Shown here in pieces: positions 2,803 to 11,014 of a stretch of DNA of 64,000 nt. Position 1 is the first letter of the stretch; every line of letters begins with the position of its first letter. The notes beneath the pieces are model-generated. The model made no database searches and had not been told where the DNA came from. It saw nothing but the letters and a program-made list of their open reading frames with translations. Position numbers and translations under genes: made by a program. The DNA lies in contig CASIAP010000004.1 of assembly GCA_949372645.1 (NCBI GenBank), positions 186,001-250,000 of the forward strand, read 5' to 3'. This stretch comes from Candidatus Poseidoniaceae archaeon. GTDB taxonomy: Archaea; Thermoplasmatota; Poseidoniia; Poseidoniales; Poseidoniaceae.

Positions 2803-3828
2803 TCAGCGTGTAGCAAGAGTGAGGTTCTTCCACATCTCTTCAGGTACTTCCATAGCAAGGCGAAGACCACCCATAGCACCGAGGCGCACTGGGTCATCGA
2901 CGACGTGAACATTGACATCGCCCATATCGGAGAGTTTACGTTCAATCATTGCGCCAAGTCCTTTGATACCGGACCCCCCACCAGCGAGAACCATATTTCG
3001 ACGGAATTCGTCGTGGTATTCGGGGTTAGAACCTGCAATCAATTGCTTGACGTTATCGACGATTGGGTCTACAATTGCTTCACAAGCACGTTGGATACAA
3101 TCTGTAATGTCAAGATTCATTGCTTTACCTTCAATTGAAAAATCAACCATAACTGGTTCATCAGGAGAAGAATTTCCTACGAAGGAATGCTGTTCCTTCC
3201 AACGTCGAGCCATATCTTTTGTGATTTGAGCTCCACTGTATTTGGATTGAACTTCTTCGATGATCTTACGGTCAATGAAATCTCCAGCATGACCTGTGTG
3301 CATTTGGTCACCAGGTCCTGGAATAGTCCCGTAGACACGGCAAAGATCGGCTGTTCCAGCGCCAATATCAATGACGAGGGTGTGTTCAAGCATGTCCAAT
3401 GCATATGCAACAGCGAAAGGCTCAGAAATAATCATTGCAGCGTTTACTGATCCTGCTGCAGCATCAAAGATAGCCGTCTTGTCGACATAACTTGCTTCAG
3501 CTGGAGCACCAATGACTGCGACGACACGATCATAATCTTCAGGGTCTGAAAGACCAATGAGGTGGGTAATGAAGTGAGCGATGAATTCGCGGTCTTCTTG
3601 AGTATCTTTGATAACACCCAATTCCAAAGGACGGAAAAGGTTGAGAGCGAGACGATTCTTGAGGGCTTCTTCACCGAAAAGGACATCTCGCTTGAGGAAA
3701 TTACGTGCAATTGGGTCCTTAGGAGTTCCAATTACTGTGAGTTCTTCTTCTTCGTGGCTATCCGAAGATACCATGACGGAACGGAAGGTTCCTAAATCAA
3801 TTCCAATATACAATATGTCTTCTGCCAT
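2803..3828 (-). CDS. MamK-like actin-family ATPase
   Basis: A 341-residue actin-fold ATPase, probably a filament-forming cytoskeletal protein. Phosphate-1 loop GIDLGT lies at residues 9-14, phosphate-2 loop VIDIGAGTADL at about 152-162, and the adenosine loop LAGGGSG near residue 277. Several stretches recall bacterial MamK rather than MreB, crenactin or Hsp70: GTIPGPGDQ (168-175), KEQHSFVG (211-218), the ACEAI helix, and the NPEYHDEF segment before the adenosine loop. MamK positions magnetosomes, but no magnetosome gene is seen here. It lies 157 bases downstream of a zinc-ribbon gene on the same strand. The function in an archaeon is unknown; cell shape, polarity or organelle-like positioning are possible. 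Confidence 0.85.
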   Translation of the reverse strand: MAEDILYIGIDLGTFRSVMVSSDSHEEEELTVIGTPKDPIARNFLKRDVLFGEEALKNRLALNLFRPLELGVIKDTQEDREFIAHFITHLIGLSDPEDYDRVVAVIGAPAEASYVDKTAIFDAAAGSVNAAMIISEPFAVAYALDMLEHTLVIDIGAGTADLCRVYGTIPGPGDQMHTGHAGDFIDRKIIEEVQSKYSGAQITKDMARRWKEQHSFVGNSSPDEPVMVDFSIEGKAMNLDITDCIQRACEAIVDPIVDNVKQLIAGSNPEYHDEFRRNMVLAGGGSGIKGLGAMIERKLSDMGDVNVHVVDDPVRLGAMGGLRLAMEVPEEMWKNLTLATR

Positions 3829-3985: not shown

Positions 3986-5002
3986 TTAACACCATTCTTC
4001 ACAGCCTTGACAATACCATGCAGCATATTCTGTGTAAAGTTTTGCCATTTGTCCACAGGATGTGCATTCCTTTAGCGTGTCTTCCCCATAAATTTCCAAG
4101 ACCATTTGAACATGGTATGTGTCATCGATGCCTAATTGTTGTCTCATTGACCAAAGCAATTGATCTTCACTTGGAGATATAATTCCGTCTTCTAAAACGA
4201 GTTCAACAATATTTCGATAATCATCGAAATCTTGCAAGTTACGAGCATCAAGTATGACTCCATTCTTTTCTGCTACTATGTCTGTGCCCCCAGGATCGTC
4301 AACAAACAAGACTAAGGATTCTGCTTTAAGATCCGCATTCCGAAGTTCAAAAGAAATACGAACCCCTTCGAGAGTTGCAAAAACTAAATCCGAATTACTG
4401 TTGATTGAATTGCAAATGGAACGAGCAGTGTCTTCCGCAGAGCGCCCCTTTCGCCAGCCAAGAGGGTCATCAACGTTAAAGCAATAAAATTCAGTGCCTT
4501 TCCCAGGATACTCAAGACGGATTTCTTCACCACCATCAAATCCGTTTGCAACGACCGTTAGAGCGGCTACTTCAGTTGAAACAAGGTTATCTTCATCATC
4601 AAAACTAATCATGAGAGGTTTCCTTTCTTCTGTTGCGGTATTGAAATGACCTTGCATTCCTGACATCCATTTGTCTTCAAGGCGAGTAAGTGATTCCTCT
4701 TGACTTTTGGAAAGGTTCTTTTCAATCCCAAGAACTCCCGCTAGGCTACCGCTTTCGACCTCGCGCTTGAATTCCTCAATTTGTTGACTGTCTTGATGGT
4801 ACGTTGGGACTTCAGTAGCATTCGATTCTTCGACATAGTCGGGATCTTTCCATTCATGTTGGCAACCTACACAATTGAGATATCCATTCATGGTCGAAGG
4901 TTGGGATTCTCCACCACATCGGGGGCAATCACCACCTTCATTGAAGCCGAGATTGTCAACAGCTTCACGTCGACCCTTCCGCATGTTGCCAAATCCCGCC
5001 AT
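3986..5002 (-). CDS. Protein with zinc ribbons at both ends, function unknown
   Basis: About 338 residues; family not recognised. Near the N-terminus is a four-cysteine zinc ribbon (CPRCGG ... CVGCQHEW) and at the extreme C-terminus a second one (CTSCGQ ... CQGCEEW). Between them are an acidic, Glu-rich linker and a mixed alpha/beta region of roughly 200 residues that contains an EDGIISPSEDQLLWSMRQQLGI segment resembling a small helical domain. I start it at the ATG at 5002 (MAGFGN); the frame stays open to an ATG at 5032, but the first ten extra residues look non-coding. It lies upstream of the actin-like gene on the same strand, so a shared role is conceivable but not shown. Confidence 0.7.
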   Translation of the reverse strand: MAGFGNMRKGRREAVDNLGFNEGGDCPRCGGESQPSTMNGYLNCVGCQHEWKDPDYVEESNATEVPTYHQDSQQIEEFKREVESGSLAGVLGIEKNLSKSQEESLTRLEDKWMSGMQGHFNTATEERKPLMISFDDEDNLVSTEVAALTVVANGFDGGEEIRLEYPGKGTEFYCFNVDDPLGWRKGRSAEDTARSICNSINSNSDLVFATLEGVRISFELRNADLKAESLVLFVDDPGGTDIVAEKNGVILDARNLQDFDDYRNIVELVLEDGIISPSEDQLLWSMRQQLGIDDTYHVQMVLEIYGEDTLKECTSCGQMAKLYTEYAAWYCQGCEEWC

Positions 5003-5070
5003 ATTGTTCCCACACCCTTGCCTTTCTATCAAGGCTTTGGAGAAAATAAATGGAAAAAGTCCACGACAAA

Positions 5071-5919
5071 TTAACGCTTAGGAATCGCTTTGAGTCCATA
5101 ACGAATCATACCTTCTTGCGCGTAAATTCTTCGGACAGCGAAATGAACTGTATCTCCAATCTTCGGAGAATATTCGAGATCATCTGTGACGAGAAAAACC
5201 CCTCGAGGACCCTGTGTAAATCGAACTAAAAGAGTCTGAATGCCACCCAAAATAGGTGCGCGTAATGAAAATTCGGATGGCGCTCCAGCCGCACTGAGTT
5301 TGGTCCATGATTCAACTTGAGCCTCCGGAAGAAGCATATGCGATTCCTTAGAAATACGTAAACCATTTTCATCGAGTTGGCGTGGAGGCCAAATCATACG
5401 GTCACCTACTTTTTGAGAAGTTAGCGATAATCGGGCCACAGCTCCTTCCAGATATTGTGAAGTCGATACATATGCTCCTTGTGATACATGATGTACTTCC
5501 TGTTCAAGTCTCCATGCTTCATTCATATCTTTAAAAAAACCAGTATCGATAATTTCAACATCAGTTGGTGCTTTGAAATCATACGATTGCGCATTGCATT
5601 TAGCAACGACCAGTGTTGCTTCTTCACCACCCAAAAGGTCCCATGCCACGTCTTCAAATTTCAAATCAGCATTATGAGCCATCGAATCAGCACCCGTTGC
5701 AAGGAAGACGGTTCGAGCATCAATTGAATCCGAAAGATGGATGGATTCTATCAAATGACCTTTACTGTGCATGTATTGGATTCCCGCAATGGCCATTGTT
5801 GTCGAGTCACTGTCAGGACCATAGACGATTATATCCTCATGAATGTAAGGAGATTGTATGAACAATGACTCTTCATTCATCACAGCTAAATAGCCCTTCC
5901 AATGAAAGTAATCATCCAT
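5071..5919 (-). CDS. DUF35 OB-fold protein with degenerate thiolase-like N-terminus
   Basis: 282 residues starting at the ATG at 5919, which follows a GGGAGGGAG ribosome-binding motif. The C-terminal ~120 residues look like a DUF35 acyl-CoA-associated OB-fold (WPPRQ, then LRAPILGGIQTLLVRF, and near the end YAQEGMIRYGLK). The zinc-ribbon cysteines usually found before this fold are absent. The N-terminal ~150 residues (YGPDSDSTTMAIAGIQYM) recall the start of HMG-CoA synthase-like condensing enzymes but show no catalytic Cys/His. In archaea a thiolase, HMG-CoA synthase and DUF35 protein form a complex that channels acetoacetyl-CoA in the mevalonate pathway. Its start overlaps the thiolase stop by eight bases, so translational coupling is likely. 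Confidence 0.72.
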   Translation of the reverse strand: MDDYFHWKGYLAVMNEESLFIQSPYIHEDIIVYGPDSDSTTMAIAGIQYMHSKGHLIESIHLSDSIDARTVFLATGADSMAHNADLKFEDVAWDLLGGEEATLVVAKCNAQSYDFKAPTDVEIIDTGFFKDMNEAWRLEQEVHHVSQGAYVSTSQYLEGAVARLSLTSQKVGDRMIWPPRQLDENGLRISKESHMLLPEAQVESWTKLSAAGAPSEFSLRAPILGGIQTLLVRFTQGPRGVFLVTDDLEYSPKIGDTVHFAVRRIYAQEGMIRYGLKAIPKR

Positions 5920-7087
5920 TCCGCTCCCTCCCAAAAATGTGAACGGCGCATGTAGCACCAGAACCTCCAACATTGTGAGTCAATGCAGTTTCTGCATCCC
6001 TCACTTGTCGGGCGCCTTCTACTGTACCCCTCAACTGTTTGAAAACTTCCACTGCCTGTCCCGTTCCGGTAGCTCCAAGTGGATGGCCTTTGGATTTGAG
6101 ACCTCCACTCGGGTTGATACAAACTGAGCCTTCATTCCTGACACCTTGACCTTCACGTGCAAACACGCCACCCTGGCCTTGTTCTGCAAATCCAAGGTCT
6201 TCGGTCGCCATTAATTCCGCAATTGTAAAGCAGTCATGAACTTCAGCCAAATCGATATCATTCGCAGTCAAGCCCGCAGCAGAATAGGCAGATTTGGAGG
6301 CCTTTTGAGTCGCTATGAGTTGGGTAACCGAGGGACGGTCATGAAGTGCTAGCCGATCAGAGGCGGCGCCTGATGATTGAATCCATACAGGGTCCTCTGT
6401 GAATTGACGAGCGACATGGTCTGCAGCGAGAATTACACATGATGCACCGTCGGATGTCGGACAGCAATCATACAATGTAAGTGGATCTGCGACCATGAAT
6501 CCACTTTCAGCCTTTTCATAGGACACTTGCTTCCTAATATGCGCATCCTCATTTTCAAAACCATGCATATGGTTTTTTACGCTAATGTGTACCAAATCAT
6601 CATGAGATGAATCGTGTTCATGGAAATGCCGTCGTGCCATCAAGGCATAGGTCCCCGGAAAAGTAAGTCCTGCAAGACGTTCCCATTCTGTATCGCCAGA
6701 AACGCCAAGCCAGAAACGTTTTCGTTCTGGAGATAAATCATTCATTTTCTCGATTCCACCAGCTACTACAAGATCCGCCTGGCCACTTTTTATTGCCATC
6801 CAAGCATCACGGAGTGCAAATCCAGAAGATGCACAAGCATTTTCCACACGTCGTACTGGAATTCCATCCAATCCTGAATGTTCAGTCAATAAAGCTGCAG
6901 TGTTGCCGAGTTGTGCCCCACCAAATGCTACACTTCCAATGAAGGCCTCATCAACTTGACGTGGTTCAAAATCTTTGTCGACACTGGAAAACGCATTTTC
7001 GGCTGCCTCTGCCCACATTGCTTTGAGGCCGAGTTGGTGATTGCCAAACTTTGTTTGACCAGCACCGATAACGGCAACATCGACCAT
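5912..7087 (-). CDS. Thiolase (acetyl-CoA C-acetyltransferase type)
   Basis: 391 residues from the ATG at 7087 (MVDVAVIGAGQTKFG), which is the usual archaeal thiolase start; an upstream in-frame ATG at 7111 is less likely. The nucleophilic cysteine lies in ENACASSGFAL (about residue 82). The C-terminal His/Gly motif NPSGGLKSKGHPLGATG is intact. This resembles the archaeal SCP2-type thiolase that condenses two acetyl-CoA to acetoacetyl-CoA, the first step of the mevalonate pathway. A role in acyl-CoA degradation cannot be excluded. The DUF35 gene overlaps its stop codon, as expected for the thiolase-DUF35 complex. A dedicated HMG-CoA synthase gene is not seen in the window. Confidence 0.88.
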   Translation of the reverse strand: MVDVAVIGAGQTKFGNHQLGLKAMWAEAAENAFSSVDKDFEPRQVDEAFIGSVAFGGAQLGNTAALLTEHSGLDGIPVRRVENACASSGFALRDAWMAIKSGQADLVVAGGIEKMNDLSPERKRFWLGVSGDTEWERLAGLTFPGTYALMARRHFHEHDSSHDDLVHISVKNHMHGFENEDAHIRKQVSYEKAESGFMVADPLTLYDCCPTSDGASCVILAADHVARQFTEDPVWIQSSGAASDRLALHDRPSVTQLIATQKASKSAYSAAGLTANDIDLAEVHDCFTIAELMATEDLGFAEQGQGGVFAREGQGVRNEGSVCINPSGGLKSKGHPLGATGTGQAVEVFKQLRGTVEGARQVRDAETALTHNVGGSGATCAVHIFGRERNG

Positions 7088-7197: not shown

Positions 7198-7893
7198 ATG
7201 CTACGACAATGTAGAGCCCACGGGCACTTCAAGGGTGCTAACTGCCCCACCTGTAACGAAGAAGGAAAATTCATCATGAGTGACCGAGAATCGAACTCTC
7301 TGGGTCGAATGCTGGCACTTGTCTTGCGACATGCTCCTGAAAAGTTTAACGTGGAAATGGACATCAATGGATGGGTCAATGGCCGAGAACTTTCGGAATC
7401 GATTTCAAAGCAACGTCGACACTATCATTGGCTCCGTGGCTGGCATTTTGCAGCAATAGCTAACGCTGATGACAAAGGACGTTACCAAGTCGAAGGTGAA
7501 ATGCTTCGTGCAACCTATGGACACTCAATTGAACTTGAACTCGACCTTCCAACAGACCAAATCCCTGAAGCGCTTTATTGGCCTTGTGAAGAAGAGCAAG
7601 TAGAGACGACTAAAGAATTAGGAATCACAACAGGAGATCGAAAGCATATCCATCTCTCCCGAAGTATCACCAATGCCATGGAAGCAGGACACGTTCGTAT
7701 TCAACGACCTGCTATTCTTGAAGTTGATACCGTTCGAGCAATCGCCGATGGACATATCATTTACCGTGCTGGGAAAACTGTCTTCCTTGTTGATGAAATG
7801 CCAGGTGAGTATCTCTACCGTATTGAAGCAGATGACCCAATTATTATGGAAATCGTCGCTCAATGGGAACTTGAAGCACAAGAAGAAGAGTGA
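7198..7893 (+). CDS. kptA: RNA 2'-phosphotransferase (Tpt1/KptA family)
   Basis: 231 residues. The KptA fold transfers an internal 2'-phosphate of RNA to NAD+, giving ADP-ribose 1'',2''-cyclic phosphate. SLGRMLALVLRHAPEKF and HLSRS (near residue 150) are family signatures carrying the catalytic Arg/His residues. The first ~25 residues hold a zinc-finger-like pattern, Cys-x2-His-Gly then Cys-x2-Cys, seen in many archaeal homologues, so I keep the ATG at 7198 rather than the one at 7276. Archaea lack the fungal tRNA ligase pathway, so the in vivo substrate is uncertain. It is divergent from the thiolase operon across 110 bases and converges on the next gene with no gap. Confidence 0.9.
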   Translation: MLRQCRAHGHFKGANCPTCNEEGKFIMSDRESNSLGRMLALVLRHAPEKFNVEMDINGWVNGRELSESISKQRRHYHWLRGWHFAAIANADDKGRYQVEGEMLRATYGHSIELELDLPTDQIPEALYWPCEEEQVETTKELGITTGDRKHIHLSRSITNAMEAGHVRIQRPAILEVDTVRAIADGHIIYRAGKTVFLVDEMPGEYLYRIEADDPIIMEIVAQWELEAQEEE

Positions 7894-8229
7894 TTACCGC
7901 TTTTCGCCACATGAGGCGCAGAAGTCGAGATCATTCTCAAGTTGATTTCCGCATCCACTGCATACTGATTGGCCTATGTTGAGTGTTTCAATTTTAGAAA
8001 CATGTTGCGGAGCGTCATCTCGAGAATTCTGTTTAACAAAGTGCAGCGGGTTGATTCCATGATCTTTAAGTTCACGGAATCTGTTTCCAAAGATTATAGC
8101 TTCTTGTATAGCAGATTCGATTTGAAGTTGACGTGATTCTCGGTCTGTACGATCACCGATTTCTTCTGATTCTTCAAGAATCGCTTGGAGATGGCGCATA
8201 AAGTCGCTCAGTGATGGACCGTCGGACAT
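7894..8229 (-). CDS. Small zinc-ribbon protein, function unknown
   Basis: 111 residues. The N-terminal two thirds is predicted mostly helical and charged (SDFMRHLQAILEESEEIG ...). The last ~25 residues form a zinc ribbon with two CxxC pairs (CSGCGNQ and CASCGEK), the common 'zinc-ribbon at C-terminus' layout. I do not recognise the helical part. The stop codon abuts the end of kptA on the other strand and the start lies 103 bases from that of isopentenyl phosphate kinase, so the promoter region must be short. Confidence 0.68.
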   Translation of the reverse strand: MSDGPSLSDFMRHLQAILEESEEIGDRTDRESRQLQIESAIQEAIIFGNRFRELKDHGINPLHFVKQNSRDDAPQHVSKIETLNIGQSVCSGCGNQLENDLDFCASCGEKR

Positions 8230-8332
8230 GTTGATGGCATCACCCAGTGGGTCATCAATGCTTGGAGTGGAAATTACCTTTTTCTTGGAAATGAAGGGGC
8301 ATCCTCATGTGCGATTTCCTCTTCGGCATACC

Positions 8333-9157
8333 ATGGGTGAGCGAGTGATTATCAAATGGGGTGGCGGCCTCATTACTGAGAAATCATCTCTTTGCACACC
8401 TGATTTGCAAGTGTTAAATCAACTCGCACAAACAGTTTCGACCTGCCTTCGACATGATGTGGATGTGGTATTGGTCCACGGAGCTGGATCATTTGGGCAT
8501 TTGCGAGCCAAGCATTGGAAATTACATGAAGGTCTCTTGGAGAATGAGGACTTTCAACCTGATGAACTGTGCTCATCACAATTCGAGGCAGTCGCTCAAG
8601 TTCGCAAGGAAATGCTTCAACTCAACCATCATGTGTGTGAAGCCTTGAGGAAAAATGAGATTACTCCAGTGATTCACCCACCACATCTGTGGGCCAAAAA
8701 TACAGGTACTGAATTCGTGGGTAATCTCGACCGGTTTTTGGAACAAAATAAGGGTCAAATTCATGTGACGTTCGGTGATGTTGTTGATGTCGAAGGCAGT
8801 CAGCAATTTGGAATTCTTTCTGGAGACGACCTTGTAGCCCGATTAGCAATTGAATTGCCTCAGGTAGAGCGATTGGTTTTTGCGATTAAGGGTGTTGATG
8901 GACTACTACGAGTACCCCCTGAGCATGCAAATACCAGTGACTTGATTGAACATTGGTCCCCAGATATTCAATTTGAAGGGACACACAAATCTGAGATCGA
9001 TGTAACTGGAGGCATCGGCCTAAAAGCCGCCCGTGGGGCTTATGTAGCATCTCATGGAATTGAAGTCATCATGGTGAATGGTGGAGTCTCAGAACGAATA
9101 CTGGGTGCTATGCTCGGCACTCCTGTCCGTGGAACGATTGTCACTGCTAAAAAGTGA
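8333..9157 (+). CDS. Isopentenyl phosphate kinase
   Basis: 274 residues of the amino acid kinase fold, starting at the ATG at 8333 (MGERVIIKWGGG); the 35 residues open upstream have no family counterpart. The phosphate-binding lysine motif IKWGGG, the HGAGSFGH motif with the IPK-specific histidine that selects isopentenyl phosphate, the SGDDLVARLA loop, KGVDGLL and DVTGGIGLKA are all present. The enzyme makes isopentenyl diphosphate from isopentenyl phosphate in the archaeal versions of the mevalonate pathway. The product feeds the fused isomerase/prenyl synthase encoded 99 bases downstream on the same strand, so these two probably form an operon. Confidence 0.93.
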   Translation: MGERVIIKWGGGLITEKSSLCTPDLQVLNQLAQTVSTCLRHDVDVVLVHGAGSFGHLRAKHWKLHEGLLENEDFQPDELCSSQFEAVAQVRKEMLQLNHHVCEALRKNEITPVIHPPHLWAKNTGTEFVGNLDRFLEQNKGQIHVTFGDVVDVEGSQQFGILSGDDLVARLAIELPQVERLVFAIKGVDGLLRVPPEHANTSDLIEHWSPDIQFEGTHKSEIDVTGGIGLKAARGAYVASHGIEVIMVNGGVSERILGAMLGTPVRGTIVTAKK

Positions 9158-9256
9158 ACTGCGTCAGTTTTGAACTACGAATTGCGATATTGCGTTCAAC
9201 ATTATTCGGAGAACCCTTCATGTAGCGAGCGCGAATCCATTGAGACTGGGGTCGAC

Positions 9257-11014
9257 ATGGTAGGTTATGGAATTCAAGATGTGCCGAACGTGGAACTCTC
9301 CATTTCTGAGCAAGATCTGCTTCACTCGATTGGTGCAAATGATGTCCAATCGGAATTGATGGCTGAAGCAATAATCTCGGTTACCGAGTCTGATGAAGTC
9401 TTAGGTCCAATCTCGAAAATCTCAGCACACCGTGACGCAGGGTCCTACCATCGAGCATTCAGTGTTCTTTTATTTGACTCCAATAAGCGTCTTCTTCTTC
9501 AACGAAGGGCAGATGACAAAGTAACGTTTCCTGGTGTTTGGGCGAATTCCTGTTGTTCTCATCCACTGCATTCAAAGGATGAGTTATCAGAGGATAATGC
9601 AATTGGTGTGAAAAATGCTGCCATTCGAAAGCTTGAGCAAGAGCTCGGTATTGCAGCATCAAACTTTTCAGTAGATGATTTCCATTTCATGACTAAAATG
9701 CGCTATTCTGCGCGAATGAACGAAACATGGATTGAACGAGAAGTCGATCACATATTGGTTGCACAAGCCGATGTGGAAGTCCATCTAAATCCAAATGAAG
9801 TGTCTGAAATTGCTTGGGTTACCTATGAGGAGCTTGAAGAATTACTGCTTGAAGAGGGACCAAAGAATGGCTCAATAGCTCCTTGGTTCAGATGTATTGC
9901 TGCACGTATTATGAATGAAGAATGGTGGAATGCAGTTGGAGATCGCACAGCATTGGCTGAACTTGCAGACGATAAGATTCATGATATGGGTGATGTGACG
10001 CATATGTTACCAGAAGCTGAAGGCGCAGGATTGGATATTTCAGTTCTTGAAGTCAAACCTCTTGTTGAGCAGCGGATCATGAACAGTTTGATGTCATCTC
10101 GACATGAACGACTCGCAGCAGCAATGACCCATTTGATTCATGGTGGTGGAAAGCGTCTTCGAGCAACATTGCCTTGGCTCGTTGGTAAAGCAGTAGGAGA
10201 TTCTCATTCTGGTATGCTTGATGTAGGAGCTGCAATTGAAACAGTACACAATTTCACCCTTGTACACGATGATATCATGGATGATGATGATGTTCGGCGA
10301 GGACGTAATGCAGTACATATTGAATTTGACCTCCCAACTGCTATTAATGCAGGTGATGCAATGTTAGCTATTGCTTTTGAACGCCTGGTTCAGGCAGAAG
10401 GATTGGAGGCCACAGATGTGGCTGCACTTGTCAATCGGATTGCTTGGATGGTTCGACGCGTCAGTGAAGGACAACAAATGGATATCGAATTTGAAGACGA
10501 ATTAGCAGTATCGGAAGAAGACTACATCGAGATGATTGAGGGGAAGACTGCGGTCATGTTCCTCACATGTGCTGAAATTGGTGCACGAATGGCAGGTGCC
10601 GACCAAGAGACCATTGAATGCATGGCAGATTGGGGACTCGCTGTCGGATTGTGTTTCCAACTAATGGATGATTTAATTGATGTTCTTTCAGACTCAGAGG
10701 TTCTCGGAAAACCCGCAGGTTCAGATGTCGCCCAAGGTAAACGTACACTCATGGTCATCCATGCGCTTGCTCAACCTGATTCCGATGACAAAACTACACT
10801 TCTTGCTGCACTGGGTAAAGGTGAAGAAGCCAGTGATGAAGCAATCGCTGCTGCATTAGAAGCACTTGGAAACTCTGGGTCCATTGATTATGCCAAACAG
10901 AGAGCAGTTGAATACCATGCAAAGGCACATGCTTGCCTTGACCGTATTCCACAGGGACCTTCTCTGCGAGCTCTAAGGGAACTTACTGATTTCCAACTCA
11001 AGCGCATCAGTTAA
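9257..11014 (+). CDS. Fusion: type I IPP isomerase + polyprenyl (GGPP-type) diphosphate synthase
   Basis: 585 residues from the ATG at 9257. Residues ~60-235 form a Nudix-fold type I isopentenyl-diphosphate isomerase: the catalytic cysteine is in NSCCSHP (97-103) and the glutamate in WIEREVDHI. Residues ~265-585 form an all-helical trans-prenyl synthase: GGGKRLRA, first Asp-rich motif DDIMDDDDVRRGR (about 338-350) and second motif FQLMDDLID (about 471). A Phe at the fifth position before the first motif fits archaeal FPP/GGPP synthases. One polypeptide thus makes DMAPP from IPP and extends it. The reading frame is continuous with no stop or shift. The fusion follows isopentenyl phosphate kinase and overlaps the convergent MOSC gene by eight bases. 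Confidence 0.93.
   Translation: MVGYGIQDVPNVELSISEQDLLHSIGANDVQSELMAEAIISVTESDEVLGPISKISAHRDAGSYHRAFSVLLFDSNKRLLLQRRADDKVTFPGVWANSCCSHPLHSKDELSEDNAIGVKNAAIRKLEQELGIAASNFSVDDFHFMTKMRYSARMNETWIEREVDHILVAQADVEVHLNPNEVSEIAWVTYEELEELLLEEGPKNGSIAPWFRCIAARIMNEEWWNAVGDRTALAELADDKIHDMGDVTHMLPEAEGAGLDISVLEVKPLVEQRIMNSLMSSRHERLAAAMTHLIHGGGKRLRATLPWLVGKAVGDSHSGMLDVGAAIETVHNFTLVHDDIMDDDDVRRGRNAVHIEFDLPTAINAGDAMLAIAFERLVQAEGLEATDVAALVNRIAWMVRRVSEGQQMDIEFEDELAVSEEDYIEMIEGKTAVMFLTCAEIGARMAGADQETIECMADWGLAVGLCFQLMDDLIDVLSDSEVLGKPAGSDVAQGKRTLMVIHALAQPDSDDKTTLLAALGKGEEASDEAIAAALEALGNSGSIDYAKQRAVEYHAKAHACLDRIPQGPSLRALRELTDFQLKRIS

Follow-up and report, generated by a model that had tools for sequence, protein, structure and literature searches.

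MamK, the actin of magnetosome alignment, and its relative BeeR of the Verrucomicrobiota are both proven filament formers, and BeeR, which occurs outside magnetotaxis, assembles ATP filaments of unknown function (PMC11929497). A second actin, Mad28, occurs beside MamK in magnetotactic bacteria, where MamK also acts together with coiled-coil proteins (PMC12748827). On the archaeal side, salactin of Halobacterium has been reported as an actin most closely related to MamK (PMC10746226). Here we describe two ancient MamK-like paralogs, A and B, conserved in one archaeal order, each with its own conserved partner genes. We infer that the order is the Poseidoniales (Marine Group II), and that its families f1 and f2 are MGIIa and MGIIb, respectively (cf. 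PMC6461757, PMC6336850, PMC6864105). A literature search returned no account of this gene, or of an actin cytoskeleton, in Poseidoniales.

Family, fold and nucleotide site of paralog A

The window, that is the whole stretch of 64,000 nucleotides analysed here, belongs to a genome of 1.8 Mb in 17 contigs, 84% complete. Paralog A is encoded at 2803-3828 on the minus strand, as an ORF of 341 aa with an ATG start; this confirms the ORF of a preliminary description of the same DNA, which stated no strand. The motifs on which that description had based a resemblance to MamK are also there: KEQHSFVG occupies residues 211-218, NPEYHDEF follows ACEAI, and GTIPGPGDQ lies at residues 167-175, its start having been given one position too far (168-175). 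The residues equivalent to MamK E143 and D161 are conserved, as are the phosphate and adenosine motifs, and both A and B keep all motifs of the nucleotide site.

Profile, PDB and fold comparisons gave the same best match. With the NCBIfam profiles, A scored 362 bits against MamK (NF040964, E 2.3e-108), 214 against BeeR (NF053558), 87 against MreB and 68 against salactin, the curated cutoffs being 400, 530, 293 and, for the salactin equivalog, 400 bits. The broader Pfam models MreB_Mbl (88 bits, cutoff 27) and Salactin (59 bits, cutoff 27) were passed, and the archaeal model MreB-like_C, with 17.8 bits, stayed below its cutoff of 27.8. A PDB sequence search with A matched chains of MamK (E 5.6e-75), BeeR (6.2e-45), MreB (3.6e-12) and Hsp70 (1.2e-4), and neither a crenactin nor a ParM chain up to E 1; the closest solved chain is MamK, at about 39% identity. 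The structural model proposed in the preliminary description was built with AlphaFold from 37 sequences (pLDDT 89.7, pTM 0.86); when it was searched with Foldseek, the MamK filament structure 5ljv was the best match (TM 0.90/0.95), followed by BeeR and MreB.

A tree had been proposed as well, and a maximum-likelihood tree of 79 proteins was calculated with MamK and MreB rows, the proposed crenactin, Ta0583 and ParM rows being left out. A and B were each recovered as a clade (100/100 in both cases) and joined together at 99/99, within a MamK-like group that has 99/97 support without BeeR. The magnetosome-type MamK proteins, assigned as such by identity and host name, formed a separate clade (100/98), the MamK-like actins of Halobacteriota another (100/100), and most other bacterial MamK-like genes fell in a further group. 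BeeR, salactin (100/100) and MreB (100/99) lay outside. For the deep branches, the AU test allows both a single archaeal clade (p 0.37) and a grouping of the A/B clade with magnetosome-type MamK (p 0.24).

Several lines of evidence thus place A in the broad MamK-like family, since it has an actin fold and an intact nucleotide site and resembles MamK and related actins more than it does MreB, Hsp70 or salactin. The preliminary description was right in setting the protein nearer to MamK than to MreB or Hsp70, and crenactin, which it had also named, was unmatched; a position within the Hsp70/MreB-like or crenactin groups, its contrary outcome, was not found, because profile, tree and fold favour MamK. 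Its label "MamK-like" stands at the level of the family, but A is no ortholog of MamK: A and its paralog B make up a clade of their own, restricted to a single archaeal order, and A lies outside the magnetosome-type clade in the best tree and scores below the MamK cutoff, which no member of the order reached. A shares with MamK (5ljv, 5ljw, 5jyg) the fold, the nucleotide site and the length; it differs in having no mam genes nearby and other partners, described below. BeeR (8r2n), the second-best profile and fold, is likewise MamK-related and free of magnetotaxis, but A falls well short of the BeeR cutoff and lacks the disordered N-terminal extension of 30-50 residues. Salactin, in spite of the relationship reported for it, matched A with only 59 to 68 bits and lies far outside the MamK-like group. 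Since A matches MamK and BeeR by profile, PDB search and fold, and both of these form filaments (PMC11929497), A is very probably a filament-forming, ATP-binding actin of the MamK-like family.

Two loci and their joint distribution

Paralog B lies on another contig, C10, of the same genome. Both genes were found throughout family f1 and, within family f2, in genera g5, g7, g9 and g21; they were probably already present in the ancestor of the order. Elsewhere in the phylum sample there was one clear MamK-like match (G133, 435 bits) and a much weaker one (G292, E 6e-22). Contamination was considered as the origin of the former and rejected: genes for RNA polymerase and Kae1 of archaeal type lie on its contig (locus L135), and for this reason it was treated as archaeal.

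Directly upstream of A, on the same strand, lies c1 (3986-5032, minus strand), a 348-aa ORF for which the ATG at about 5002 (MAGFG...) is the probable conserved start. The order c1 then actin held in 18 of the 18 loci measured, with gaps of 9-158 nt, even where the flanks are rearranged (L065). The zinc ribbons at both ends of this neighbour, seen in the preliminary description, were recovered as CxxC...CxxC sets; of 18 orthologs, 17 keep the N-terminal set and all 18 the C-terminal one. Between them lie a central beta domain and, near the C-terminus, a TerB-like helical domain, weakly supported by Pfam; the best Foldseek match of the beta domain was flagellin 4nx9 (E 7e-5), only a lead, given the poor superposition. 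Apart from the zinc-ribbon matches, no DNA-binding domain was recognised in c1. The observation that no mam-type gene lies near A also held among its neighbours in the window. Further upstream, the uncharacterised c24 (5071-5973, minus strand) was found in 9 examined loci, all of family f1, and is missing where the c1-actin pair is kept; we do not count it as core. Also outside the system is c6 (7198-7893, plus strand), which has the same neighbours in actin-positive and actin-negative genomes and serves as a flanking marker of the empty site. Beyond it, a long ORF at 9170-11014 reads by eye as a Nudix-type isopentenyl diphosphate isomerase joined to a polyprenyl diphosphate synthase; it adjoins a probable isopentenyl phosphate kinase (8228-9157), and this pair is conserved in most A loci.

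Locus B has partners of its own, in the order c2, actin B, c3 in nearly all of 19 loci (c3 is missing beside the actin in L082, and the genes are spaced more widely in two loci). The first, c2, is a subtilase (PF00082) with a C-terminal hydrophobic, transmembrane stretch that leaves a short tail behind it; most members have another hydrophobic stretch at the N-terminus. For c3 no confident Pfam family was found; about 60% of its length scores as coiled coil with a simple heptad measure of our own, and only 3.6% of other genes reach even 30%.

In family f2 the actins come and go together with c1 and c3. All ten actin-positive genomes have c1 (cut by a contig end in one) and a full-length c3, and none of the 20 actin-negative genomes has a full-length copy of either. 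At the empty A site, the flanks c6, c11, sometimes c19, then c13 stand together without c1 and actin in 4 of the 5 loci examined, the fifth being rearranged. At the empty B site, only an N-terminal piece of c3, 155-164 aa long, lies between c16 and c8 in 3 of the 4 loci examined (L240:9125-9592, L241, L243:9739-10224); in the fourth, the piece was matched in the genome search and missed by the ORF scan. The retention of this half suggests that it has a separate role. Because two unlinked cassettes are missing together, they suggest one function for A and B. The joint absence may also stem from one or few losses in small-genome lineages, that is, from general genome reduction. A role in division was considered and judged improbable: FtsZ-family genes are present in actin-positive and actin-negative genomes alike, so that the actins are unlikely to be needed for it. 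Beside two strong FtsZ-type matches, a third, weaker tubulin-family match was noted (G000:C2:130820-131281 and equivalents) in five of six genomes tested.

MamK-like actins away from magnetosomes

A scan of genome contigs gave 495 encoded relatives. The best 80 of these 495 include Magnetospirillum, Magnetococcales, Nitrospirae, Desulfobulbaceae, Latescibacterota, Gemmatimonadetes, Planctomycetota and Acidobacteria and, among Archaea, Methanoperedens, a Thermoplasmata archaeon and an uncultured archaeon; in a sample of Halobacteriota, 12 of 247 genomes gave matches above 180 bits. MamK-like actins away from magnetosomes are therefore common, being found in many bacteria that do not belong to the known magnetotactic groups and in at least three other archaeal groups; the description of BeeR makes the same point for Verrucomicrobiota (PMC11929497). 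No homologs of c1 or c3 were found in the distant MamK-like loci searched for partners, and c2 had weak matches in three bacterial loci.

The partners of these relatives recall locus B in kind. In 24 loci among the best 80 of 495 (L128-L133, L136, L137, L139-L142, L144, L145, L147, L148, L150, L151, L155, L156, L158, L159, L161, L162), a homologous protein precedes the bacterial MamK-like actin; the two of these proteins that were checked proved to be N-acetylmuramoyl-L-alanine amidases (Amidase_3, E about 1e-43), and by eye they have a hydrophobic segment at the N-terminus. This pairing hints that the actin and an envelope hydrolase act together, and is like locus B in that a MamK-like actin adjoins the gene of a membrane-anchored envelope hydrolase, although the enzyme is a peptidoglycan amidase rather than a subtilase, the actins belong to another clade and neither c1 nor c3 is present. 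In Methanoperedens, other Halobacteriota and Thermoplasmata SG225.bin14, the MamK-like actin is followed, as B is, by a protein with coiled-coil stretches; these actins form separate clades, and the partner is not homologous to c3 and carries an ArlD/E domain in some cases. One set of Halobacteriota loci (L209-L217) encodes an actin with the degenerate nucleotide motifs GxDAGMFK, DIGLNRTE and GGTS, possibly non-hydrolysing, followed by a long coiled-coil protein with a 4-nt overlap in those read. The magnetotactic bacteria, with two actins and coiled-coil partners, offer a further likeness to A, B and c3.

A possible envelope scaffold and its alternatives

The conserved partner genes of the two actins, and their shared presence and absence across relatives, make it probable that they provide an internal scaffold for a cargo other than magnets. 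More specifically, and with a confidence that stops short of an even chance, we favour A and B with their partners as one dispensable cytoplasmic scaffold positioning a cargo linked to the envelope. A would work with c1 as its adaptor, and B with the coiled-coil c3 and the membrane-anchored subtilase c2, which could tie the B filament to the cell envelope; the two filaments would function together, and the cargo would be the envelope, possibly the c2 protease itself. Gene neighbourhood is no proof that A or B touches c1, c2 or c3, and it is only by its distribution with B that A would enter an envelope scaffold, because c1 has no obvious membrane link.

Other assignments of the filament can be weighed against the same data. 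That it positions the archaellum or its polar cap, as part of a motility or adhesion apparatus, appears unlikely to us, even if the gene 0 nt downstream of the Methanoperedens actin encodes a protein with an ArlD/E domain (PF04659, E about 5e-17), as does the gene downstream of the actin in L207, and most of the f1 genomes tested encode archaellins as well as actins. At its archaellum locus this order also has a small protein with the TerB-like domain of c1, but the domain is present in other proteins of these genomes too. Moreover, g7 and g21 hold both actins and gave no archaellin or ArlJ match, while g4 has archaellin and ArlJ and no actin; since some genera have one without the other, an obligate link was rejected, and the archaellum, though perhaps a cargo in certain archaea, is not a required one in this order. 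As for the archaellum-locus protein itself, it is about 145 aa long (L244:12227-12664, L245:12541-12975, L248:4442-4882) and is followed by the gene of a second protein, this one very large (about 1600 aa). A DNA-segregating actin of the ParM kind, for which c1 would be the DNA-binding adaptor through its zinc ribbons, is less credible still. Segregation actins usually lie beside such an adaptor, and A does adjoin a conserved zinc-ribbon protein; yet c1 offers nothing else recognisable for binding DNA, no ParM-type Pfam model was listed for A, B reached 12.7 bits against a cutoff of 27.4, and the actin-negative relatives make the actin dispensable.

The assumption of polymerisation has its own alternative, namely that A and B act as ATPase switches without polymerising, or that A is regulatory and only B polymerises. 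In most A sequences an Asp occupies the position of A278D, the substitution that blocks polymerisation of MamK (PDB title, 5ljw), and the archaeal relatives L209-L217 have degenerate nucleotide motifs. The residue at that position, however, differs among magnetosome-type MamK proteins, and most MreB rows have Asp there; it is not diagnostic and was dropped as a test of polymerisation. A and B retain the complete nucleotide site; we regard switches of this kind as improbable. Least credible of all, and very close to dismissal, is a true MamK aligning magnetosome-like organelles in this archaeon. The closest solved relative of A is indeed a magnetosome MamK, and the AU test tolerates the grouping of the two clades, but the best tree keeps them well apart, no mam genes stand among the neighbours of A, and no homologs of c1 or c3 were found near the magnetosome-type loci retrieved.

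The envelope scaffold could be extended to a wider, and doubtful, picture. A with c1 and B with c3 would form a two-filament cytoskeleton anchoring the membrane subtilase from inside, as a single branch of a broader archaeal actin-plus-coiled-coil system that parallels the bacterial MamK-like actins with their membrane amidases; magnetosome MamK would then be a specialised offshoot of a general family positioning envelope hydrolases or organelles.

If the order is indeed the Poseidoniales, its members are among the most abundant Archaea in surface oceans. In them, MamK-like actins are separated from magnetosomes and can be assigned concrete partner genes. It thereby becomes testable whether an older positioning system common to Archaea and Bacteria was co-opted for magnetosome alignment.
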